A stretch of 38,731 nucleotides of DNA from a virus. The notes below the pieces were generated by a model that saw only the letters and a program-made list of their open reading frames with translations, was not told the origin of the DNA and made no database searches. This document shows, piece after piece, positions 5,568 through 38,731 of this stretch; position 1 is the first letter of the stretch; every line of letters starts with the position of its first letter. The stretch spans positions 1-38,731 of the IMG/VR virus record IMGVR_UViG_3300021477_000137. The stretch is one strand, 5' to 3'. The translations under genes and the position numbers were made by a program.

Positions 5568-7427
5568 TTATTTTCCGATTACGTCTCCGTTAGCGTCATA
5601 TGTGTTCCCGTCACTCCCATTAAAGTTTCCCTGTGCAGTCGGAGTAAGCGTGACGCCAGGAAGGCTCGCATTCGTGAATGGATGTCCGACTGTGAATGAT
5701 TGGCCTCCGATAGTGACAGATTGCCCGTATGTCGAAAGAGCTGTGGCGGCTCCTGTCGGACCAACCGAAGACAAGGCGTTAAGATCCGGTACGACGGAAG
5801 TATAATCACTATAGCCGCTCGAATTGAGGGCATTTATGGCCCCATCATAAACCGGAATATACGCGGTCTGGTATTCTCCATAGACCGTATTTGCTATCTG
5901 TATGAGTTGCTGTCTTTGGGAATCAGACAGAACTCCTCCCTGCGCGGCAGCGGCATTTTTTATGACATCGAGACTATCGGCATATGAACGTCCGCCAGTT
6001 ATTGTCTGAACTTGTGCTTCGGTGACCTGATTTCCTCCCGAATCGAGCTGGATGACCGCATCCAGGAGATCATTGTCGGAAACGGAGCCTGGCGTCTGTA
6101 CTGCGCCTTCAATTCGCGAAAGCATCGGTTGCGCTGCAGCAAATACGGTATTCGCAGGAAGATTCATATACTGTGAAATAACTGATTGTGCTCCTGATGC
6201 ATTAGTTGCAAGAGTCCTGGAATCATAATACCCTCCCTGCATCGCATCCTTAGCTATGGTCGCATTCAGCGACTGAAGCTTATATTGCGCCGCATCAAGC
6301 GATGAGACAGTCTGGGGATTCTGTAATGTGCCAGGAGCAAGATTGAGAAAATTCTCAGCGTCTGCCAAAGCGCCGGGATTGTTTCCTATCGACTGGACAA
6401 GCGCGGAATATCCGTTCGCCGATGAAGAGATTATCTTCTGATAATTAGCCGTAGCCTGCGTTTGCATATTCTGATAGAAACTGAGATATCCTTGAGACTG
6501 GGTGATGTTATCGGTCAGCTGCTGCTCCGCCTGTTGCCTGTCGGATTCCTGGACAGACATCTGATTTTGCACTTCGTCCTGGGCGAATGAGAGCTGATTC
6601 TGTATCTGTGCGGCCTGTTGGGACAGGACTTTATTCCTTGTCGTAGTCAGTCCTTCGACATATCCTTCGCTTGCTCCGCCGCCCGATGAGGCAAGCTCGT
6701 TCTCTATGTCAGTCTGCTGTCCATTCATAAGATTTTGGATGTTCATCAGGCTCAACTGATCCTGGGGTATTCCGGCACCCTGCTCGAGAGTTGACTGAAG
6801 AGCGGTCAGCGACTGCAATGAGCTTTCATAGCTCGTCAGATTATTCTGCGCCTGAAAGTAATTCTGTGTTGCAGAATTGATCGCTTCAGTGACTGGGCCT
6901 TGCGCCTGACCCTGAGATTCCACAGTCGCTCCGATAGCGGAACGGGCATCGGCTCCCGTTTCAGGAGCAGCTTGTCCCGAAGAAGTCACTGCATTGAATG
7001 CATTGTTATAGGTGGATGCCGTGGCCGCGTATCCTGGATTCGTCGAAGCTATAGTCGAATTGGGATTTATAACGGCTGGATTATTATTCACTCCTGATGG
7101 ATTCTGAAACCCCTGTGCCGTAGCGGGCTGTTGAGGCGCAATCCCAGAGCCTCCAGGTTCTCCCGTAACCGGAGCTGTGGAACCTGAAGTTCCGGGAGAA
7201 GTTTGAGGGGGATTTGGAATTGCGGAGCTGACCTGGCTGGTAGTCACCGGGGTCACTGTGTGCCCTGCTATAGCGGGAACTTCCCCTGAAGAATTCGAAT
7301 ACGAGTTTGTTCCCGTAGAAGACCAGCCCGATGAGAGAGCTGCAGCTTGCTGTGCGGCAGTAACATTGGCATTCGGCGTCGCTGTATATGTCGTTCCCCC
7401 GGATGTAAGCGTTAAAGTTTGAGGCAT
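5568..7427 (-). CDS. Putative large virion protein, Ser/Gly/Gln-rich with central coiled coil
   Basis: The protein has 619 residues. The first 130 are low-complexity Thr/Ser/Pro/Gly. Residues about 175-330 are Gln-rich heptads (NLTSYESSLQSLTALQS, QQAAQIQNQLSFAQDEVQNQ) predicting long helices. The middle is helical, and the end is a beta-like FTVGHPFTNASLPGVTLTP segment. It is flanked by the nozzle-like gene side (small gene 7429-7731) and the Gly/Ala-rich ejection-type protein. Together these suggest a tail-length or internal-virion role. No family was recognised with confidence. Confidence 0.65.
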   Translation of the reverse strand: MPQTLTLTSGGTTYTATPNANVTAAQQAAALSSGWSSTGTNSYSNSSGEVPAIAGHTVTPVTTSQVSSAIPNPPQTSPGTSGSTAPVTGEPGGSGIAPQQPATAQGFQNPSGVNNNPAVINPNSTIASTNPGYAATASTYNNAFNAVTSSGQAAPETGADARSAIGATVESQGQAQGPVTEAINSATQNYFQAQNNLTSYESSLQSLTALQSTLEQGAGIPQDQLSLMNIQNLMNGQQTDIENELASSGGGASEGYVEGLTTTRNKVLSQQAAQIQNQLSFAQDEVQNQMSVQESDRQQAEQQLTDNITQSQGYLSFYQNMQTQATANYQKIISSSANGYSALVQSIGNNPGALADAENFLNLAPGTLQNPQTVSSLDAAQYKLQSLNATIAKDAMQGGYYDSRTLATNASGAQSVISQYMNLPANTVFAAAQPMLSRIEGAVQTPGSVSDNDLLDAVIQLDSGGNQVTEAQVQTITGGRSYADSLDVIKNAAAAQGGVLSDSQRQQLIQIANTVYGEYQTAYIPVYDGAINALNSSGYSDYTSVVPDLNALSSVGPTGAATALSTYGQSVTIGGQSFTVGHPFTNASLPGVTLTPTAQGNFNGSDGNTYDANGDVIGK

Positions 7428-7428
7428 A

Positions 7429-7731
7429 TTATGTAAGAAGTCCTAGATTACGGAGAGCCTTCACGACTTGGGCTATGGTATATCCGTCGAACGTCGAAGC
7501 GGTATTTATGGCAGTTCCTGAATTAGCCGTAAATGATGATGCCGCTCCTCCCGTCGCTGGCTGCGGAACTTTCGGCGTATTGAAGAAGCCTATCTGCTGG
7601 CTTGAACCAGTTATCGGAGAGTTTATATCGGTAACAGGATCATATCTCCTCGTAGTTCGGAATGCGGAAAGGCTCCTCTTTGCCGAAGCGATCTTTATGT
7701 CTATTATTCTTTCTATAGTCTTCTGATCCAT
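7429..7731 (-). CDS. Small tail-associated protein
   Basis: The protein has 100 residues. It starts with a helical MDQKTIERIIDIKI segment and ends in YTIAQVVKALRNLGLLT. That ending resembles the xxAQLVAALKxxGLL tail end common in small phage virion proteins encoded beside fibres. It lies between the nozzle-like gene (ends at 7736) and the 619-residue virion gene (starts at 7427) with gaps of only a few bases. A structural role is inferred; no named family. Confidence 0.65.
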   Translation of the reverse strand: MDQKTIERIIDIKIASAKRSLSAFRTTRRYDPVTDINSPITGSSQQIGFFNTPKVPQPATGGAASSFTANSGTAINTASTFDGYTIAQVVKALRNLGLLT

Positions 7732-17882: not shown

Positions 17883-19307
17883 TTATTTCCCTTTCCAAAT
17901 GTCTTCCATTGCGTCGTGAAAGACCCGATTAGACTGATATTTGACGATTCTCTTGGACTTTATTTGCGTCTGTGATACATCCATCGTGAGGCATGCGGCA
18001 TCAAAACAATTAGGCGACGCTATCCCTTGTCTCAGCAATTCGTCTTTCGGCTGCATGAAAATCTTTCCGTCCTTGTTCTTGTATTTGATAGTCTCAGCAT
18101 CTTCCCATCCTGAATCATACCATAGCTTGCCCCCTGTCAACAACCATTGCCGCTCTTTCCAGTACAGTTCGGCTTTACGGTTATAGAACATATCTGATTC
18201 CGCAGATGCTCCGAAATTGACTTCGACGACGGGCAAGTCCATCTGCTTCATCCTGTCATACACGCCCTTGCCTATCCCTGTGGCATCCACCGCGATGCAT
18301 TCGGGCTTGTCTTCATAGTATATCTCCGAAACCACGGACACTAAGTCCATCGTATCTTTTAGCTTTTGATTGAACCGTATCTCCTGAAGATTGCCTGACT
18401 TTAGAACGATAGCCGAGTTGTCGCCGCCTGCCGCAGGATCAACGCCAAGGACTTTATATCCCGCATGGAACGCTTCCTTGGTATAGCAGTTGGCAAGCTC
18501 CAAATCAGTCAGAAGCCGTATATAGCCATCGGCACCTATCTTATCAGCCGCGGGAAACTTGCATTCGAACAGCACGTCGAAGTTGGGTTTGGTCCTGGCT
18601 TCCTCGATGAAGTCATACGAGTATCTTCCCTCTTTCAATGCCTGCTTGAAGTCTATGAATATCTGCAGATAGCGCGGATCCCTAGAAGATTCATAAAAAT
18701 GATTCCGGTAGAATGGATTTCCTATCTTCACATACATCGCATCCTTCTTTCCAGCTATCATGCGGAAAATCGTCGCCTCGATTATATCAGGAATCAGACA
18801 TGATTCGTCTTCAATGACGGTCTTTGAGCCTTCACCCATCGCCGCCTCGAATCCTTTCTGGGAGTTTCCCGCTTGGACCGAAAGAACGAATATCCCTCCC
18901 CGATTTCTAAGAATCAACCTGTCTTTAGTCGTCTCCATCAAGAGCCGATCCACTTTATCCGTCTTCTCCAGCTTGTTATAGAACAATGGGTGGTCTCCCA
19001 GATGCTGAAGGTAATACCTCATGATGATATTTCCCTTCTCTTTTGTAGGAGCGGGTATGCTTATCAATTCCCCGTCTATGCAGGAAAGGTATACGCAGGC
19101 CAGAGCTACTATCAAAGACTTTCCATATTGCGTGCTCGTGATTATCTGTATCCTGTCTGACTTCTTTAAGACGATAGCGGCGAATATGAGCAATTGTCCT
19201 TCCGTCACTTTCTTGTCGGCTGATTCCCCGTCAATCGTAAAGAGCCTGAGTATCTTCAGGCAGTGCTCTCTCTCATCACTTCTTAGAACGAAAGAGGTTG
19301 GTTGCAT
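17883..19307 (-). CDS. terL: Terminase large subunit
   Basis: The protein has 474 residues. The ATPase domain has a Walker A STQYGKS (residues 58-64; an unusual QYGKS form) and a Walker B TVIEDES (163-169). The RNase H-like nuclease domain has GVDPAAGGDNSAIV (Asp290, Asp296) and IAVDATGIGKGVYDRM (Asp341), then CFDAACLTM near the end. It pumps DNA into the prohead and cuts it. Its ATG lies 32 bases inside the end of the small terminase-like gene. Confidence 0.93.
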   Translation of the reverse strand: MQPTSFVLRSDEREHCLKILRLFTIDGESADKKVTEGQLLIFAAIVLKKSDRIQIITSTQYGKSLIVALACVYLSCIDGELISIPAPTKEKGNIIMRYYLQHLGDHPLFYNKLEKTDKVDRLLMETTKDRLILRNRGGIFVLSVQAGNSQKGFEAAMGEGSKTVIEDESCLIPDIIEATIFRMIAGKKDAMYVKIGNPFYRNHFYESSRDPRYLQIFIDFKQALKEGRYSYDFIEEARTKPNFDVLFECKFPAADKIGADGYIRLLTDLELANCYTKEAFHAGYKVLGVDPAAGGDNSAIVLKSGNLQEIRFNQKLKDTMDLVSVVSEIYYEDKPECIAVDATGIGKGVYDRMKQMDLPVVEVNFGASAESDMFYNRKAELYWKERQWLLTGGKLWYDSGWEDAETIKYKNKDGKIFMQPKDELLRQGIASPNCFDAACLTMDVSQTQIKSKRIVKYQSNRVFHDAMEDIWKGK

Positions 19308-19578
19308 CTTTGATTGACAGCTCCAGTTTTGTTAATCCTTCGATCTCTCCTTTCATCTCGATAGGAGCCATCGGCTTTCCCCATACCCTGTCATGCAGTT
19401 CCTTGATAGCCTGCATATCCCCTTCCTGCGCAAGCGCGACAAGCTTATTGTTTATCGGCTCGGCGACTTGGAGATATTTGTCTATGAGCTGTTGCTTGGC
19501 CTTTTCAGCTTTAAGGGTATGGGGCATTTTAATTCCCCTTTTAAGCTCTCCTAGTTTGTTGCCTGGTGCAAATGGCAT
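19276..19578 (-). CDS. terS: Small terminase-like DNA-binding protein
   Basis: The protein has 100 residues. It starts FAPGNKLGELKRGI (the FxPGN-G...-type start) and continues with helical ALAQEGDMQAIKELHDRVWGK, then PIEMKGEIEGLT. This layout is shared by small phage proteins encoded directly upstream of the large terminase and usually called terminase small subunit. It overlaps the large subunit by 32 bases. The assignment is by this layout and position. Confidence 0.65.
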   Translation of the reverse strand: MPFAPGNKLGELKRGIKMPHTLKAEKAKQQLIDKYLQVAEPINNKLVALAQEGDMQAIKELHDRVWGKPMAPIEMKGEIEGLTKLELSIKDATNLFRSKK

Positions 19579-19599
19579 AGATCCATGAATTCATTGACA

Positions 19600-19704
19600 C
19601 TAGAACAATTTGATTAGCCTGTATATCCCGTATCCAACTACAGCATAGCAAGCCAATGAAAAGGCAAGAACGCCGTACATACCGATGATTGTTTTATTTG
19701 TCAT
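19600..19704 (-). CDS. One-pass membrane microprotein, 34 residues
   Basis: A short frame beginning MTNKTIIGMYGVLAF and ending in YRLIKLF contains one hydrophobic helix of about 20 residues and basic ends. An AGGA lies five bases before the ATG, the clearest ribosome site in this block, and the ORF starts ten bases after the upstream stop. It could be a spanin-, pinholin- or regulator-like peptide; no family is recognised. Confidence 0.6.
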   Translation of the reverse strand: MTNKTIIGMYGVLAFSLACYAVVGYGIYRLIKLF

Positions 19705-19713
19705 ATATATATC

Positions 19714-20100
19714 CTACAGCTTCTTCCATTTAATGTCAAGGTTCATGACTTTCTTATCGTATTCAGCCCAATCCTTTCCCGCCCATGCTATTATCATCCT
19801 TTCCACTTTCTCAGCCATATCATCAGCTTTCTCGTATATGGGATTCTTTGAGTACATGCGCTCGTCGTATGAACCGTCCCCTACGATGTCGTAAGAATCT
19901 ATCTCTCTCTGGCCGATTCCTTTTATGGCAAGGAGAGTGCGTTCGAATAGTTCGTGAATCGCGACTGCGGCAGTTTCTACATCATCCAGACCTTTTGCCA
20001 CTTGCACCAATCCGTTGTCGTACCAGTCCCCGCATGTCTCGTACCTCATGACAGGTTTGACCTCGAACTTCCAATTCTTTATTTTAAGCGATTTTTTCAT
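19714..20100 (-). CDS. HELFE-motif protein, possible zincin-like
   Basis: The protein has 128 residues. The centre contains AAVAIHELFERTLLA (about 44-58), an HExxE-like metal motif after RYETCGDWYDNGLVQVAKG. Small phage proteins with the W-x-D/N-G...HELxE arrangement are common and are suspected metalloproteins, but activity has not been shown as far as I know. It overlaps the start of the upstream HTH/zinc gene region by four bases (ATGA). Function tentative. Confidence 0.6.
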   Translation of the reverse strand: MKKSLKIKNWKFEVKPVMRYETCGDWYDNGLVQVAKGLDDVETAAVAIHELFERTLLAIKGIGQREIDSYDIVGDGSYDERMYSKNPIYEKADDMAEKVERMIIAWAGKDWAEYDKKVMNLDIKWKKL

Positions 20101-20555
20101 GAAATGAAATTACATTTGAAGCATTTTGAATCCCCTTCCTTTATCGGCACGAATCGTCCCTTGCATTGAGGGCAGATCGGGTATTCCTTGTGATCGAATA
20201 CGCTATTGGGCATCTTATGCCAGAAATATTGATTATCATAGCATGTATCGTACATGTTGGGAATGCATATCATATATCTTCGCTCTAAGGGAAAAATATC
20301 TCCGTATAAGATATTTCCCTTGGAAAATCTCTTTCCTTGGCCGATTTCATGCCCGATGTAATCCGAGTACCGGATTTTTCCTTCGTTCATCCGACCCACA
20401 GAAGTAGGATTGTTCGCCCTTTTAAGCGCAGTTATTCCAAGACTTTTATAGGATTTAACCACCTGATGGACATACTGCCTGCTCACTCCCAGCATCGAGG
20501 CTATCCGTATCTGCTTCACTCCTTCGGAATATAGTTTTTTTATCTCTTCAGTCAT
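20097..20555 (-). CDS. HTH plus zinc-ribbon DNA-binding protein
   Basis: From the ATG at 20555 (MTEEIKKLYSEGVKQ) the protein has 152 residues. Residues 3-40 form a helix-turn-helix of the IRIASMLGVSRQYVHQVVKS type. The C-terminal part has CPQC and CFKC pairs forming a zinc ribbon. An ATG at 20579 would add eight residues. The chosen start overlaps the methyltransferase stop (ATGACTGA) and begins at the family-like HTH start. It may regulate late transcription or act in packaging. Confidence 0.65.
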   Translation of the reverse strand: MTEEIKKLYSEGVKQIRIASMLGVSRQYVHQVVKSYKSLGITALKRANNPTSVGRMNEGKIRYSDYIGHEIGQGKRFSKGNILYGDIFPLERRYMICIPNMYDTCYDNQYFWHKMPNSVFDHKEYPICPQCKGRFVPIKEGDSKCFKCNFIS

Positions 20556-21192
20556 GGATATATAATGCGTCGGCTGCATACGTATCTCTTGAGGTGAAAG
20601 TGACGAATTTAAAGCCTTTTGATTTCAGGAATTTGTCCATATCCCCGAATAAAGGCTGTCTTTCATAGATCGGGAAGAACTCCACTTCCGTGTGGATCAT
20701 CTTAACATCATTGATCCGTTTCCCCAGACCTTTGAGCACCATCAACTCGCTTCCTTGGGCATCCATCCACAGAATATCTATCCTAGGAATTCCCCGTTCT
20801 GCCATAAAGGTATCCAATCTTGTGGTTTTTACCTTGATTCTGTTTTGAACATACTGCTCAGGAGGGTATTTACCCGTAGCTTTCAACAATGAGGACGCAC
20901 CCGGATTTCCGTCGGCATGGGAGGTAGTCGTCTTTTGAGTGTCTATCTGATAGAAATATCTGAAACCATCCTTGTCCGAAACTGCACTTTCAATGACATG
21001 AAATCCGTATTCATATGACCTGTTATGGCATCGAAGTATCGTTTCAGGATTGCATTCAAAGGCATACACGCTTGCCTTTGGATACGTCAATTTGAACCAT
21101 TTTGATTCATTGCCGTCCCTTGAACCCACCTCAATGATATATTCAGGTTCGAAATTGACATGACGGATCAGATTTTGCTGGTTGGATTCCAT
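20548..21192 (-). CDS. FkbM-family methyltransferase
   Basis: The protein has 214 residues. IIEVGSRDGNESKWF (about 19-33) is the SAM-binding loop, VYAFECNPETILRCH follows as the acidic loop, and RIDILWMDAQGSELMVLKGL is the hallmark FkbM segment (usual form D-xxDxxGxE-xxLxG). FkbM enzymes O-methylate sugars or related small groups, often on surface glycans. It closes the five-gene glycan cassette and starts with a TGATG overlap, so it is likely to cap or modify the glycan built by the four transferases. Confidence 0.85.
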   Translation of the reverse strand: MESNQQNLIRHVNFEPEYIIEVGSRDGNESKWFKLTYPKASVYAFECNPETILRCHNRSYEYGFHVIESAVSDKDGFRYFYQIDTQKTTTSHADGNPGASSLLKATGKYPPEQYVQNRIKVKTTRLDTFMAERGIPRIDILWMDAQGSELMVLKGLGKRINDVKMIHTEVEFFPIYERQPLFGDMDKFLKSKGFKFVTFTSRDTYAADALYIHD

Positions 21193-21854
21193 CAGAGTTT
21201 GATGTATTTATGAAGCTTTGAATGATGAAAAATGGGATTCTGTCCTTCGCCATAATAACATATTGCGGGGATTCCCAAGGCTGCTGCCAATGTCGCCTGA
21301 CCTGAAGTTACGCATGAATATTTCTTGCACGACAGGATCATATTGCAATAATCCGAAAGACCATTTGGCCGTAAATCTTCCGATTCATTTGATATCCGTT
21401 TGTAGCCTTTATCAAAGAATATTTGCAAATCGGTTTTCGGAGGATTTTTCCTGAAAGTTCCCACATTGGACACATAGTTTCCATCATACAAAGATTTTTC
21501 AACGGCATCAAAATCGGTAGCCATATATCTTAAATGGAGCTCTGGCTCATGCCATCTCTCACCATCATCCAATCCAAGGGCGATCATATTCCTATCAAGC
21601 AGATTCATATCTCCCTTCAAATCCAGGACTTTCCTCTCTAATTCCTTGAAATCCATCCCTTGTTCGTCTATAAAACCGTCTACATAGGGGTTATTTGCCC
21701 ATATAAACGATTTATATACGGGGTCCCGGTATTCAGACCTATTTGAGATTAAAACCTGTCCTACGCCATTTTGCTTGGCTATACGCGGTATGTGGGAAAA
21801 GAACAGATGATCTCCCAGTCCTCCGTACTTCACTTGTATCACAAGCTTACTCAT
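21192..21854 (-). CDS. GT-B glycosyltransferase, GT9/heptosyltransferase-like
   Basis: From the ATG at 21854 (MSKLVIQVKYGGLGDHLFFS) the protein has 220 residues. The GGLGDHLF loop is the nucleotide-sugar GT-B N-terminal glycine loop. The C-terminal CVTSGQATLAAALGIPAICYYG matches the GT9-type acceptor/donor site (SGxxHLAxALGxPxI). A longer in-frame extension to 21980 lacks family features. The ATG overlaps the GT2 stop by eight bases. It is shorter than typical GT9 enzymes (about 320 residues). Confidence 0.75.
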   Translation of the reverse strand: MSKLVIQVKYGGLGDHLFFSHIPRIAKQNGVGQVLISNRSEYRDPVYKSFIWANNPYVDGFIDEQGMDFKELERKVLDLKGDMNLLDRNMIALGLDDGERWHEPELHLRYMATDFDAVEKSLYDGNYVSNVGTFRKNPPKTDLQIFFDKGYKRISNESEDLRPNGLSDYCNMILSCKKYSCVTSGQATLAAALGIPAICYYGEGQNPIFHHSKLHKYIKL

Positions 21855-22530
21855 AAATCTTCGGGTGAAGCTTGCGAAGCATATCTTCAAGATATTTCTT
21901 CTTATCAGGCTCATTGCATTCATCGACCATGCTTTTTCCATGTCTGCGATACATGAAATATGCGGATGGAAGCCGTGCAAAAGCCGCTCCCCTCTCGAAA
22001 AGCTCCATATTCAATTCATAGTCTTCCCATCCAAATGTCATCTTCGGATTATATCCCCCGCAATCCATAAGGACTGACTTTCTGACTGCATATGTGTGAT
22101 GGATGGGATTGTTTGCCGCCAATTGTTCCTTGCTTATCAGATCAGGCATCGGAACCCGCTGGGAAAAATCCCCGAATATCTGCATATCAGGGTATATCAC
22201 GTCGGCATCGGTTGTTTCGATGAGCTTTGCCGCATCCTCGCAATACAAAGGGGAAATCATATCATCGGCATCGAGGGGAATTATGTAATCACCCTTCGAA
22301 TGATATATCCCCAGATTTCTAGCCGCAGACAATCCGCGATTCTTGACTTCTATATACGTTATCTTTTCTAGGAAAGGTTTAACCACTTCGGAGGTGTTAT
22401 CGGTGGAACCGTCATTTATAACGATAATTTGAATGTTTTCATACGTCTGTTCGATCGACGATTTGATGGCATCGGGAAGATACTTGGAGTGGTTGTATGA
22501 GGGAATGACTATCGAGAAATGAGTCTTCAT
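21847..22530 (-). CDS. GT2 family glycosyltransferase
   Basis: The protein has 227 residues. FSIVIPSYNHSKYLPDAIKS begins the GT-A fold, NDGSTDNT (about 39-46) binds the nucleotide, and LDADD (86-90) is the metal DXD site. GGYNPKMTFGWEDYELNMEL supplies the usual ED catalytic-base region. It transfers a sugar from an NDP donor. It overlaps both neighbours (ATGA with the GT6 gene), so the cassette is one translational unit. Confidence 0.9.
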   Translation of the reverse strand: MKTHFSIVIPSYNHSKYLPDAIKSSIEQTYENIQIIVINDGSTDNTSEVVKPFLEKITYIEVKNRGLSAARNLGIYHSKGDYIIPLDADDMISPLYCEDAAKLIETTDADVIYPDMQIFGDFSQRVPMPDLISKEQLAANNPIHHTYAVRKSVLMDCGGYNPKMTFGWEDYELNMELFERGAAFARLPSAYFMYRRHGKSMVDECNEPDKKKYLEDMLRKLHPKIYE

Positions 22531-23378
22531 CCTAATTTTTTTTGAAGTTCACCGAATTCTTTTCCTCCCTGCTTTGAGAGCGTATGAGCTTTGGTCAAAC
22601 AAAGCAGTTTTGGTTCGTAATCCTTGAGCCAAACTTTTCTGTAATAAGGGATCGTCGGGTATGGGGGCTTATCAGGAGTGGGATATGCCACTGGATAGCA
22701 GTAAGAGGGAGAAAGCACCTTTGCGGGTGGGTTATCCCACAGATATTTATTCCAATGAGATTCGTCATGCCAACGGGCGATGTAATTGTTCCCAAAATCA
22801 TCATCTATCGCCCGTTTGATCGCATACATTGCGTCAAGATATTTTTCTGTCTTTCCGACTTGGAACCCTCCGCAAAAATAGAGCTTAGGATAAGGAATGT
22901 ACGCGGTTGATTGAGGATTCGGCTCAAATGGCAAGAAATATATCTCGCCCGCGATGCCGTCTTTTTCCACATCCCAATGTTCCCTGTGAGGAAAAGCATA
23001 TGCAGGATGCCTCGTTGCGGTTATGCCGTCTGAAAGAACCTCATCTCCGACAGTGTCCACGAACAGCATGTCTACATCGCAGTAGATCAGATGATCATAG
23101 TCTTTCAGTTTTTCCTCTTCTTTCAGAAAGATGTGATATCTCATCAAAGTGCAATAGGGATACCCGACATTCTCGATGGGAATGACGTTTATTTTCCTTT
23201 TCAAATTGAAATCTTCCGGTGATATATCCCAATCGGTAAATAGGAAATAATCCACTTCCTGATTTGGAAGGAGGAATCTGTCCGCAGATTCAAGGACGGC
23301 ATTTATATATTGCCAGTACAAATGACCCGTCGAAATGATAAGAAGCGCTATCCTTTTTTTCTTTATATCCTTATCCAT
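22527..23378 (-). CDS. GT6 family (ABO-type) glycosyltransferase
   Basis: The protein has 283 residues. HLIYCDVDMLF supplies the metal-binding DVD (residues 101-103). KLYFCGGFQVGKTEKYLDAM matches the acceptor/donor loop, and WHDESHWNKYLW (203-214) matches the family's HDESHLNKY catalytic segment with Glu206. KVLSPSYCYP then matches KVLSPEY. GT6 enzymes are retaining alpha-1,3-Gal/GalNAc transferases, best known from ABO blood groups. They occur in some bacteria and rarely in phages. There is no membrane anchor, so it acts in the cytoplasm. Confidence 0.88.
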   Translation of the reverse strand: MDKDIKKKRIALLIISTGHLYWQYINAVLESADRFLLPNQEVDYFLFTDWDISPEDFNLKRKINVIPIENVGYPYCTLMRYHIFLKEEEKLKDYDHLIYCDVDMLFVDTVGDEVLSDGITATRHPAYAFPHREHWDVEKDGIAGEIYFLPFEPNPQSTAYIPYPKLYFCGGFQVGKTEKYLDAMYAIKRAIDDDFGNNYIARWHDESHWNKYLWDNPPAKVLSPSYCYPVAYPTPDKPPYPTIPYYRKVWLKDYEPKLLCLTKAHTLSKQGGKEFGELQKKLG

Positions 23379-23920
23379 GGATCGGGTATCTTAGTCCTTT
23401 CGATTCCATCAGAATACCATAACTTCGGGGCGATTATCTTCTTGCCGTGATTCGGACATAGCCATGCTGTCCACCAGCTCCAGGAGCTGTTGGCGATAAT
23501 ATGGTCGGAACAAGACGATTGAAGATTGAAATCAGATATCTCATCCGTCTTTTCCATCACTTGGAAACGGGAGGAATCTGAGAATATTTCCTGTTTCTTG
23601 CAAAAATCAGGATCATCGGAGAACACAAGAAACTTCCTGTCAGGGAACAGAGCTATAGCCTTTTCATAGTAATCAGTCTCCATCAAATCGATGTAAAACG
23701 GATTTCCAACGTAATCACCCCTCCTTACGTGTATCGAAACGTGCGGAATGAATCCTATATCGGTACCGAATAACCCTCTTATGTCATCTTCATTGTCTTT
23801 AAATAAAGATTCATCCTGACAATAATATTCTATCCCTTTTTCCCTGCAAAAGGAATAAAGTGCGGCAAACTCGAACATTTGATTCCCCAATCTCCCTGTT
23901 ATTTTTGTTATCGGTACCAT
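23363..23920 (-). CDS. GT11 alpha-1,2-fucosyltransferase-like, shortened
   Basis: From the ATG at 23920 the protein has 185 residues. GRLGNQMFEFA (9-19) is the GT11 start motif, SIHVRRGDYV (62-71) is the GDP-fucose-binding HxRRGDY motif, and IIANSSWSWWTAWL is the third family motif (NSSFSWWxA). Typical GT11 enzymes have about 290 residues. Here the stretch between the first two motifs is only about 45 residues rather than about 100, so part of the acceptor domain is missing. A GTG six codons upstream is less likely. It may be minimal or altered in specificity. Confidence 0.82.
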   Translation of the reverse strand: MVPITKITGRLGNQMFEFAALYSFCREKGIEYYCQDESLFKDNEDDIRGLFGTDIGFIPHVSIHVRRGDYVGNPFYIDLMETDYYEKAIALFPDRKFLVFSDDPDFCKKQEIFSDSSRFQVMEKTDEISDFNLQSSCSDHIIANSSWSWWTAWLCPNHGKKIIAPKLWYSDGIERTKIPDPWIRI

Positions 23921-23922
23921 GG

Positions 23923-24096
23923 TTATGATCCATTCCACTCATACTTAAATTGCTGATGTCGGAATAACCTATATTCCTTCAAGAGCTGATAGTATTCCTT
24001 CCTGAAATCCATAAAGCATTTCTTGTGGGTGATCCTATTCTTGTTCCAAGACCTGTTCATTCTTTTCTTGCAGAAGTGACACTTCATCCCCTTCAT
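23923..24096 (-). CDS. Zinc-finger microprotein, 57 residues
   Basis: The frame begins MKGMKCHFCKKRMN and includes HKKCF after CHFC, a plausible CxxC...HxxxC zinc finger, then a basic tail FRKEYYQLLKEYRLF. Its ATG overlaps the HNH stop as TAATG, and its own stop lies two bases from the GT11 ATG. GAGG precedes the ATG by about four bases. It may regulate the cassette or assist the HNH nuclease; no family recognised. Confidence 0.6.
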   Translation of the reverse strand: MKGMKCHFCKKRMNRSWNKNRITHKKCFMDFRKEYYQLLKEYRLFRHQQFKYEWNGS

Positions 24097-27500: not shown

Positions 27501-27586
27501 TCTAATAGATCTTTCATTCCGCCAACCAATAAGGCACGGATGGGAGGCAAACACATAGGTACTTGAAATATCTAACATCAAATCAA

Positions 27587-28057
27587 ATGAACTATCATAG
27601 GTCATTCAAAAGCGGTCAGTTCAAATCGTCATGGCTTGCAAAGCTGGGACGCTACGCTCGTGATGTCATCATCGTGGCATTGTTCCTGGAGTTCGGCCCT
27701 TGGGTAGCGTTGGGAACCTACTCGTACTTCGTCTCTCATACGGCGGATGCGCAGGTAGTGGAAGCGCAGGTAGCTACGAGTACGCCAGCAGTCGTATTGC
27801 CGCCAGTCATGCAGAGAATCGAGAAATGCGAGAGTTCGGATTCGCAGACCAAGGACGGCCAGACGCTCATCCATGTGAACGCCGACAAAAGCTATGATTC
27901 CGGCGAGTTTCAGATCAATAGCATTTGGAACGCCACGGCATCTAAGATGGGATACGACCTCTCAAAACAGTCGGATAATGAAGCATTCGCGCTGGTTCTT
28001 TACGCTAATAATGGCACAGAACCATGGTATAATAGTAAACAATGTTGGGACAAATAA
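27587..28057 (+). CDS. Membrane-anchored lytic transglycosylase-like protein
   Basis: From the ATG at 27587 the protein has 156 residues. Residues 27-48 form a signal-anchor helix and 55-72 a Thr/Pro linker (VATSTPAVVLPPV). The domain follows: MQRIEKCESS (candidate catalytic Glu82), DSGEFQIN (the GxxQIN motif), and a final ALVLYANNGTEPWYNSKQCW. This is the small SLT-type domain I associate with Parcubacteria and their phages. An in-frame TTG at 27563 is an alternative start. As the first plus-strand gene it could open the peptidoglycan for lysis or be displayed to remodel the wall early. Confidence 0.75.
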   Translation: MNYHRSFKSGQFKSSWLAKLGRYARDVIIVALFLEFGPWVALGTYSYFVSHTADAQVVEAQVATSTPAVVLPPVMQRIEKCESSDSQTKDGQTLIHVNADKSYDSGEFQINSIWNATASKMGYDLSKQSDNEAFALVLYANNGTEPWYNSKQCWDK

Positions 28058-35706: not shown

Positions 35707-38700
35707 TTATTGCGTAGCGACGACGCTATAGCTGAACACGTCCCCGGTGGCAATCGTGGCGGCCGTTATGGTGAATCCGGTCGTTGAGATTGACTGGGCA
35801 TCGGAGGATAGGATAGTCCCACTGTCCTCATTCACAAAGACGTGCACAGTCGTTCCGGTCGGATATGGATGGGCGAACAGCACGCCGCAGCTCGTGAGTC
35901 CAGTACCGAAGGTTATTGCGCCTGTCCTATCGTTACTGGCGGAATTGACTGAACCGCCGGAACAAGAAGTAAGTGTCGGTGCGTCACCCGAGACTATGAG
36001 ATGACCCCACTGATCTATCTCTTGGAACAGTTTGACCACCCCATTTTCAAGCCCCGCGATAATGGACACAAGCCCTTGGTATGCGTTGGATGCCACAGTC
36101 GAGGACGCGGCCACGGTGACGAGTTCAGCTGTAGGAGTACTTGTGCCCATTCCCACGAGTCCCCCGATTCCCACCACCATGAGGTTAGAGGTAGCGTTCG
36201 ATATGGAAAGCACATTAGGGCTAGAAGTTCCCACCACGGTAAGTTCAGCTGTGGCATTCGATGTTCCCACTCCCAAATTTCCGTTGTTCGTGACAGTCAG
36301 CTCGGTGTAGGGGGTTCCCTGGAACACGGTGCTGGAAGCTACGAGCAGATTCGGAATATTCTGGGTAGATGAAGCGTCGATTTCGAGCATAGCTCCAGGG
36401 GTTGTGGGATTGCTTCCGTTATTTCTCATATTCACGCCGACTCGATTATCCTTGGTGGCGGCGAGTGCGGCATTCGTCGGTGAACACGTGCCAACCAATC
36501 CGAAGCTGTTGCCGCCGAAGTAGAAGCTGTGGGCGGCGTTTGCATACATCACTGTGGTCTGTCCAGCCGTGGAGGCACCTACAGTCTGTGAGCTCGGGGT
36601 GATCTGCATGATAATGTCTCCGCGCGTAACTCCTCCGTTCTGGTCTCCCCAGCAGTCGTCGTTCATTCCCAATACCATGCCGCCTCCTGTATCAGTCGAA
36701 ATCCATCCGCCAGCAGAAGTCAGGAATTCACCACCACTAAAATAGGTTCCATGATTGAAGGTTCCGAAATACCCGGCGTTGGGATTGGTGCTATTGCCGA
36801 GTTGCATGATGCGGCCGTATGAATTTCCCACTATGCCGAGGAGCGCGTCAGGGGTCGCTGTGCCGATGCCGACCAATCCTTTTCCCGCCGCCGTTGCCAA
36901 TGCGACGCTGCCGTCAATGGTGGAAGTGGCAGACGTGCTAGTGCTTGTGAAATAGTTGAATGTGGGAGATGTGGAGGAAATCGTCGTGCCTGAATTGTTG
37001 ACCCCAAGCCATCCTTGGGTGGTGGGATTGGAAGAACCGCTCCCACAGGTGGTTGTTGCCATTAGGCCGATCGTGTTCACATCCACGCACGGGCTTCCCG
37101 ACGAAGCGAGAGACGAGACTACCTCGTTCGTGGTCGAGGCCGTACCTGATGTCGTTATGGCCGTCGTAGAAGCATACGGAAGCGTGGAAGCAACTGTGCC
37201 TGTAGCTGTGTACTTATTCGCTACGACGCCCGAAGCCCCTACCACGGAGAGGGCGGTGTACGGAGTGGTCGTGGCAATGCCGAAGAATTGGTTACTGCCT
37301 CCGAAGTTGGTGCAGTCATTGCATCCCACTTTTGCTCCGAATCCGAAAGCCATGGCGTTGTTAACCCCGGGCGCGAGTATGTCGGCACCTTGGCCGAAGA
37401 TGCCATCGTCCCCTTCTGCCGTTATCGTGCCTCCCGCCTGATCGCCGATGACGGTATCATTGCTGCCACTCGTCATATTGACGCCAGCCTGCCAGCCGAG
37501 AAGCGTGTCGAAAGAGCCGTTCGAGATTCCATATCCTGCGACTCCGCCCACTGCCGTATTCCCATTCTGTGCATCCTCGTTATAGAGAGCCTGGTAACCT
37601 AGAGCAGTTTCATTCGCGCCAGTTGAGTTGTTCCAAAGAGCACCGCTCCCTACGCAGGTGTTTTGAAATCCAGTCGAATTGTACTGGTCGCAATAATTGC
37701 CGATGTTCGCGTTGTCGCGTGCGGTCGTGACGTATTTCCCCGTCTCGTAACCCACATTCAGATTGTCAACGCCGGTCGAAGAAGTGCCTGTGCCTCCGCT
37801 TGCCCCGATATTCAAATCTTTCATGCTGGAAGAACCCTCTATCGGGACGATGGCCGATATGATATTACCGATATTCTGCTGGGTGATTGGAGCGTCCGAT
37901 GTGACAGGCGCACCTTGCGCGTTCAGATACGCGGCAAGGAGTTGTGCTTCAAGCGTGTAGCCTGCTCGGTTGAGGTGTAGATGGTCGGTCGAAAGGAGGA
38001 TGGAAGGCGGCAGCGTATCGCCGACGCATCCCACGTTGTCGCCGGGGATGTTGAGGGCGCACTGGGCAGTGATGAGTTCCTCACGGATGTCGAGATAGTG
38101 TCCGGGGAAGTCGGCAGCGAGCTTGTTGTTCATGGCGATGACTGAGGCGTATCCGGTCGAAGTCGAGACCTCGCTTCCAGTCGTGGTCACGGACATGACG
38201 ACATAGTGCTTCGGATTCGGAAGCGCGGCTACCTGCGCTTGGATTGCTGCGGGGACTGTCGAGGTCGAATTGGCGGTATCGTCGTTCCTACCCTCCCAGA
38301 AGACCTGATAATCATTCCAACGCTCGGGGTGCTGGAAGAACTCCGCCGCGATTTGAGATGTGATATATCCCGGATAACCGAATGCTGACGTTCGCAGGAC
38401 GCTAGACGATGCGGACGGCCACGATAGGTACTGCGGGAGCATCTCGATGAAGGATGTGACCGATCCTCCCGTGAGACCGCTTCCAACGCCATAGGTCATG
38501 CTGTCGCCCCACGCGGTGATGGCGTAATTGGCAACGACGTTGGTTGTGGTTGCATAGGTGGTCGTTCCCGTACCCCCGCTTATAACGGAAAGCGGCGTAG
38601 TCGTGCCAGAGACCGTCGTACCATTTACCGAATAGTAAGCAAGCTGGCCGAAGTTTCCTGAATTGACTGTTCCTGAACCTCCTCCGCCTGTGATACATGT

Positions 38701-38731
38701 ACCTAAGACAGCGTAACATCCTGCCGATAGA
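35707..38731 (-). CDS. Giant fibre/adhesin with SGNH esterase and YadA-like repeats, 5' end off the window
   Basis: The frame is open from the right edge and encodes at least 1007 residues. A Cys/Gly start (YAVLGTCITGGGGSGTVNSG) and linker lead to an SGNH hydrolase: WGDSMTYG (Ser at about 77), WEGRND (Asn at about 149) and STDHLHL (Asp/His at about 249-252). Then NLNVGYETGKYVTTARDNAN-type YadA-like head repeats occur between about 310 and 480. After them come repeats of the VGIGTATPDALLGIVG form. It ends in a small beta domain (GTTVHVFVNEDSGTILSSD). SGNH domains in fibres usually de-acetylate surface glycans. The repeat style is one I know from Parcubacteria. Confidence 0.88.
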   Translation of the reverse strand, partial: LSAGCYAVLGTCITGGGGSGTVNSGNFGQLAYYSVNGTTVSGTTTPLSVISGGTGTTTYATTTNVVANYAITAWGDSMTYGVGSGLTGGSVTSFIEMLPQYLSWPSASSSVLRTSAFGYPGYITSQIAAEFFQHPERWNDYQVFWEGRNDDTANSTSTVPAAIQAQVAALPNPKHYVVMSVTTTGSEVSTSTGYASVIAMNNKLAADFPGHYLDIREELITAQCALNIPGDNVGCVGDTLPPSILLSTDHLHLNRAGYTLEAQLLAAYLNAQGAPVTSDAPITQQNIGNIISAIVPIEGSSSMKDLNIGASGGTGTSSTGVDNLNVGYETGKYVTTARDNANIGNYCDQYNSTGFQNTCVGSGALWNNSTGANETALGYQALYNEDAQNGNTAVGGVAGYGISNGSFDTLLGWQAGVNMTSGSNDTVIGDQAGGTITAEGDDGIFGQGADILAPGVNNAMAFGFGAKVGCNDCTNFGGSNQFFGIATTTPYTALSVVGASGVVANKYTATGTVASTLPYASTTAITTSGTASTTNEVVSSLASSGSPCVDVNTIGLMATTTCGSGSSNPTTQGWLGVNNSGTTISSTSPTFNYFTSTSTSATSTIDGSVALATAAGKGLVGIGTATPDALLGIVGNSYGRIMQLGNSTNPNAGYFGTFNHGTYFSGGEFLTSAGGWISTDTGGGMVLGMNDDCWGDQNGGVTRGDIIMQITPSSQTVGASTAGQTTVMYANAAHSFYFGGNSFGLVGTCSPTNAALAATKDNRVGVNMRNNGSNPTTPGAMLEIDASSTQNIPNLLVASSTVFQGTPYTELTVTNNGNLGVGTSNATAELTVVGTSSPNVLSISNATSNLMVVGIGGLVGMGTSTPTAELVTVAASSTVASNAYQGLVSIIAGLENGVVKLFQEIDQWGHLIVSGDAPTLTSCSGGSVNSASNDRTGAITFGTGLTSCGVLFAHPYPTGTTVHVFVNEDSGTILSSDAQSISTTGFTITAATIATGDVFSYSVVATQ

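Follow-up and report, generated by a model that had tools for sequence, protein, structure and literature searches.

A terminase-linked glycan locus in related phage contigs and its reduced form in one genome

A cassette of predicted glycan-building genes

The window, by which we mean the whole 38,731-nucleotide stretch of DNA from an uncultivated phage analysed here (IMG/VR record IMGVR_UViG_3300021477_000137), carries on its minus strand an overlapping run of genes for predicted glycan-building enzymes. In the order of transcription these encode a compact glycosyltransferase of family GT11 (23363-23920, 185 amino acids, aa), a GT6 of the DXD type (22527-23378, 283 aa), a GT2 (21847-22530, 227 aa), a protein that could not be placed in a family (21192-21854, 220 aa; the unplaced protein) and an FkbM-type methyltransferase (20548-21192, 214 aa). 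All cassette and flanking genes share this strand, and transcription runs co-directionally into the terminase and head operon, just as the initial annotation of this DNA had described. Seven related contigs have GT11, GT6 and GT2 genes in the corresponding position, a recurrence far beyond chance, and we conclude that the cassette is the window's own, reduced version of a glycan locus that is core to the lineage and has long been maintained in this virus group.

Four of the five initial family calls are borne out by Pfam. The GT11 matches PF01531 with 84.9 bits against a cut-off of 23.9 (7.6e-24; phrog_2644, 9e-42) and has both the HxRRxD motif (HVRRGDY) and the stretch ANSSWSWW. The GT6 matches PF03414 (94.7 bits, cut-off 25, 6e-27; phrog_3317, 6e-43), has the catalytic residues D101-V-D103 and WHDES at 203-207, that is, both the DXD/NXN and the W-H-D-E-S stretches, and finds BoGT6a (4.7e-30) and the human ABO transferases (about 5e-21) among its PDB homologues. 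The GT2 reaches 121.3 bits against PF00535 (cut-off 23.3, 5e-35), while the FkbM-type protein spans the full PF05050 domain (1-173/173, 2e-27); FkbM genes also occur in three relatives (G012, G022 and G024). The fifth call, a GT-B or GT9-like transferase, had been made by eye and was not confirmed: the unplaced protein has no Pfam, PHROG or useful PDB match, and its structure model (pLDDT 34) was unusable. Its one weak tblastn match (E 1e-5) lies in a glycan cluster of Prochlorococcus phage P-TIM68; a pairing of this gene with FkbM common to both phages was considered and rejected, the neighbour in P-TIM68 being a short-chain dehydrogenase. IMG/VR scans with the unplaced protein and with the large terminase subunit (TerL) gave no confirmed relatives.

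Overlapping junctions link the cassette genes to one another. With the GT11 start taken as the ATG at 23920 (in the mechanical list of open reading frames, ORFs, the start is the GTG at 23938), GT11 and GT6 share 16 nucleotides (nt), GT6 and GT2 meet at ATGA, GT2 and the unplaced protein overlap by 8 nt, and the unplaced protein and FkbM meet at TGATG. The TAATG junction, first counted among the enzyme genes, exists as well but joins an HNH-like ORF (24434-24096, minus strand, 112 aa) to a Cys-rich ORF of 57 aa (23923-24096), which heads the overlapping run and has no Pfam family above cut-off. The reported position between an HNH nuclease and the terminase is correct, except that the HNH assignment is a weak, putative one (phrog_119, 2.9e-4; Pfam HNH E 0.18, below cut-off) and that three more ORFs separate FkbM from TerL. 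The first, with HTH and zinc-ribbon matches (20097-20555; PF13551 1.7e-6, PF13384 9.8e-6), joins the cassette to the terminase, its ATG at 20555 overlapping the FkbM stop by 8 nt; a 128-aa ORF (19714-20100), whose homologue adjoins the glycan cluster in relative G028, and a small-terminase-subunit-like ORF (19276-19578; phrog_5909, 1.6e-7) follow. TerL itself (17883-19307) has homologues in the relatives and is the anchor of the conserved position. As initially noted, Pfam, PHROG and further protein scans of the window contig found no genes for nucleotide-sugar synthesis.

Two ORFs on the minus strand are open at the contig ends, which would fit a genome that is circularly permuted and nearly complete: an LVIVD beta-propeller protein with a signal-like N terminus (2-1435) and a tail-fibre protein rich in Ser and Thr, with TTTPYTALSVVG-type motifs and a weak match to GDSL (35707-38730).

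Conservation and history of the core

Relatives were collected by a scan with the window's major capsid protein (MCP), which gave two contigs (identities of 69% and 63%), and by using their alignment as a query, which gave 34 in total, those two included. GT6 (PF03414) is present in 8 of the 22 records searched, and they are precisely the contigs with no less than 11 kb of sequence upstream of TerL; by gene calling, all eight carry GT11, GT6 and GT2 together (the window is included in both counts). Contigs with shorter upstream stretches stop before the position of the core, several of them already showing terminase-proximal members such as GT17, DUF3431, GT11b or FkbM, and one (G019) has no glycan gene within its 3.2 kb upstream of TerL. 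The core always lies upstream of TerL, portal and MCP and is co-directional with them. We thus reject the possibility, raised with the initial annotation, of a chimeric assembly or host fragment: the locus sits at the matching place in seven relatives, and GC content is level over the cassette region.

In the relatives the core belongs to a larger syntenic cluster of about 10-13 genes, against about five in the window. Outward from TerL, its common order is GT17, DUF3431, the second GT11-like gene GT11b and DUF5672, then sugar genes of the RmlD, GalE or DegT type, GT2b, a variable GMD, RmlB-like, RmlC-like or Fcl-like gene and, farthest from TerL, the GT2/GT6/GT11 core. The nucleotide-sugar genes vary among relatives (GMD, RmlB/C/D-like, GalE-like, DegT); measured against the NCBIfam equivalog cut-off of 415, the GMD of G024 passes (418.9) and that of G022 lies slightly below (405). 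The relatives combine the same core with differing sugar modules, which speaks against a single fixed sugar. In the window the core is retained, but the GT17-DUF5672 block and every sugar gene are absent; in their place stand the unplaced protein and an FkbM variant, both specific to the window. HNH genes are interleaved within the relatives' clusters, several recognised by eye (L033 5184-5747, L031 5246-5809, L070 3478-4017, and L075 4465-4971 and 10372-11058), and such insertions may drive cluster exchange.

Other genes stand close to these clusters. In G022, the interval from glycan cluster to terminase holds GroES and GroEL (L073 4640-6423) followed by a ParB-N and DNA methylase fusion (6423-7559), which is also seen in G012, while GroEL-like genes occupy this interval in G026 (18398-19840) and G028 (19805-21268). 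An SPFH/stomatin-like membrane protein, recognised by eye, lies near the GT6 gene of G001 (L031 8043-8834, minus strand), and an ORF with a long CDSCDSCDYCDSC repeat lies directly upstream of the cluster in G002 (L033 2592-3269, plus strand).

The core appears to have been inherited mainly vertically, although some exchange has occurred. A tree of 59 GT6 proteins unites the eight from this lineage in one clade (support 100/99) in which the window branches first; the nearest neighbours of the clade are a mixture of other phage contigs and cellular sequences. Distances follow those of the portal protein for GT6 (Mantel r 0.66, p about 0.02) and GT2 (r 0.78, p about 0.02), but not for GT11 (r 0.03), all three being rough values from eight genomes; GT11 has therefore probably been exchanged among relatives. 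Catalytic motifs are kept through 40-48% identity across the lineage. DXD, as in metal-dependent enzymes, was found in 22 of 22 phage GT6s examined, and NXN, as in BoGT6a (PMC3961637), in all five Patescibacterial GT6s found. Acquisition from these known Patescibacterial genes is thus unsupported, as the five also belong to another clade; GT6 is in any case rare in Patescibacteria (1/287, that one being the centre genome, selected for carrying GT6). More widely, the GT6 loci L090-L169 come from many phyla (Dependentiae, Chlamydiae, Verrucomicrobia, Planctomycetota, Patescibacteria), with one in a metagenome-assembled genome (MAG) labelled as an archaeon, and split into DXD and NXN clades.

The GT11 of this lineage is a compact form. 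Its members measure 180-205 aa and retain the HxRRxD-type and ANSS(F/W)SWW-type stretches, whereas the other phage GT11s in the comparison mostly have 242-270 aa, a few of their ORFs being longer or of unclear start. A full-length N-terminal half, where the acceptor would be bound, is not found in the window GT11, whose Pfam match begins at model position 128/298. The structure prediction called for initially was informative here: the C-terminal half of the AlphaFold model is good and resembles FUT8, the top enzyme match, with a low overall TM, while residues 1-40 have a pLDDT below 60.

What the enzymes may modify

The initial annotation had offered two uses for the cassette, decoration of the virion and alteration of the host surface. 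We give about even odds to the first, in the form of a cytoplasmic virion-glycosylation line using host donors. Late in the infection cycle, soluble transferases would draw on nucleotide sugars made by the host to assemble a short, branched glycan on proteins of the virion, whether of capsid, tail or fibres; the inner sugars would be added by GT2 and the unplaced protein, the branch by GT11 and GT6, and FkbM would O-methylate one residue. The two qualifiers attached to the pathway initially are not supported: it has no donors, no known acceptor and no initiating enzyme that would make it self-contained, and we considered an ABO-specific or fucose/ABO-type product without claiming it, given that family membership fixes neither donor nor acceptor and that the relatives' sugar genes differ.

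The main rival is that the enzymes remodel a surface polysaccharide or glycoprotein of the host envelope, which would block superinfection or the adsorption of progeny to debris, or alter episymbiotic-host attachment; we hold this to be possible, at odds well short of even. Family content does resemble O-antigen and capsule clusters, GT6, GT11 and GT17 together with RmlB- or GMD-type genes being typical of lipopolysaccharide or capsule building, and the variability of sugar genes across relatives fits an arms race over surface glycans. Moreover, cyanophage clusters of a similar kind were read by their authors as modifying the host cell wall or envelope (PMC9602691), and sugar genes of Patescibacteriota phages likewise (PMC12911398). 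Against this, simple hydropathy found no ORF with at least four predicted membrane segments, as in a flippase, GtrA or polymerase, in the eight genomes, bar one of low complexity, a few small ORFs having two or three; the multi-pass flippase GtrA and membrane GtrC of GtrABC-type serotype conversion are thus not apparent by this measure, although host carriers would still be usable. Nor did an integrase come to light in the scanned window ORFs, making lysogenic conversion unlikely and leaving little to be gained from long-term change of the host, and placement with the head genes suggests late action. It is the failure to find flippase-, GtrA- or polymerase-like ORFs in the eight genomes or a base-modifying enzyme among the window proteins scanned, together with the fixed position next to the terminase, that leads us to favour virion proteins as acceptors. 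Transferases encoded co-directionally and in synteny upstream of TerL, portal and MCP agree with such a role, as do the presence of the core in all eight informative contigs, the single GT6 clade, the GT6 and GT2 distances that follow the portal protein and the retained catalytic motifs; the chaperonin genes of G022, G026 and G028 fit a virion-maturation segment. Beyond the envelope-like family content and its published readings, other points weigh against virion glycosylation: the virion as acceptor is deduced from indirect signs; late expression is deduced from gene order, promoter and terminator scans having performed no better than shuffles; and the compact GT11, without about 65-80 aa of the N-terminal half, is an enzyme by prediction only.

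Two further explanations carry less weight. Glycosylation of modified bases in the phage DNA, as a means of evading restriction, seems very improbable. Phage transferases do this elsewhere (Pyle 2024, as cited in PMC12619734), and the GT2 has a sub-threshold match to a TET-associated GT model (E 0.084). However, scans of the window proteins revealed no thymidylate-synthase-like, TET or other base-modifying enzyme, nor is there an unassigned plus-strand early ORF of fitting size. Characterised members of GT6 and GT11, moreover, act on sugar acceptors. A decaying relic, in which most of the cluster has been lost and the remainder is non-functional or drifting, is unlikely, if somewhat less so. 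The smaller gene number than in the seven relatives, the short GT11 and a valine in place of one otherwise near-invariant GT6 glycine would all suit decay. Yet all ORFs are intact and overlapping, catalytic residues are retained and the short GT11 is common to the whole lineage; the window-specific unplaced protein and FkbM variant, filling the gap, look like replacement.

Host, precedents and significance

The proposed Patescibacterial host is moderately supported. A protein judged lysozyme-like by eye, which has a membrane segment at its N terminus and no Pfam match (27563-28057, plus strand), has matches in 9 of 333 Patescibacteria genomes and in none of 247 Bacteroidota or 195 Verrucomicrobiota genomes, which are several times larger. 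Distant homologues of the MCP are present in 2/380 genomes of Patescibacteria and in 0/247 of Bacteroidota; an MCP scan of genome contigs gave no confirmed relatives. This support is limited, as lateral transfer may account for the shared lysozyme-like gene and MAGs can contain wrongly binned phage contigs.

Systems of this kind are already known, and calling the cassette undescribed was too strong. Clusters with GT6 and GT11 are annotated in cyanophages P-SSM2, P-SSM5 and ACG-2014f, and two cyanophage GT6s are mentioned in PMC3961637. In P-SSM2 (PSSM2_265/268) and ACG-2014f the two genes lie 1-2 kb apart, in contrast to the 16-nt overlap here; both clusters share with our lineage GT2, nucleotide-sugar genes and overlapping genes, P-SSM2 also an FkbM-like methyltransferase, and cyanophage S-SCSM1 combines GT11 with GDP-fucose genes. 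Unlike the window, these are 215-250 kb myoviruses of cyanobacteria with the cluster by hli, ferredoxin or tail-fibre genes and not the terminase; their GT11 has 264 aa against 185, their GT6s branch outside the lineage clade, and no GT17-DUF3431-GT11b-DUF5672 block was detected in those compared. Groundwater phages assigned to the same host phylum carry the O-antigen sugar genes gmd, rmlB, rmlD and galE, the part of PMC12911398 drawn on here being a gene inventory that describes neither a GT6/GT11 core nor a terminase-linked locus. The window GT6 shares its family and catalytic stretch with Bacteroides ovatus BoGT6a and the human ABO transferases, but has DXD where BoGT6a has NXN and lacks a membrane anchor.

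Two precedents for virion glycosylation are compared here by description. Transferases encoded by mycobacteriophages Che8, Corndog and Myrna add glycans to the capsid and tail-tube proteins of these phages (Freeman 2023, as relayed in PMC12363180); the conserved cluster of our lineage comprises from three to some twelve enzymes. Chlorovirus PBCV-1, a eukaryotic algal virus with a different capsid, uses viral enzymes and GMD-type donor synthesis to build, autonomously, a complex glycan with fucose and rhamnose on its major capsid protein (PMC4691112). A terminase-linked, lineage-core glycan locus with a compact GT11 in phages of about 40 kb was not found in the literature searched; this covered open-licence articles only, so novelty is not proven.

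On a more specific and tentative reading, to which we give odds well short of even, the locus would be a virion-glycosylation operon that defines a lineage of phages of about 40 kb infecting ultra-small Patescibacteria, its compact-GT11/GT6/GT2 core decorating the particle with a branched, blood-group-like glycan and its donor genes being swappable and, in the window, dropped. If so, the window phage would depend on sugars supplied by its host or its host's host. Phage glycan genes are usually filed as accessory "morons" or auxiliary metabolic genes; here they behave as the core of a small-phage lineage, with a fixed place next to the terminase and sugar-donor modules that can be exchanged, and this speaks for a glycan that belongs to the basic life cycle of the virus. 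Should it sit on the virion, a genome as small as about 40 kb would encode a set of several enzymes for glycosylating the particle, and if the hosts have a minimal sugar metabolism, as they possibly do, the supply of donors would be truly limiting.

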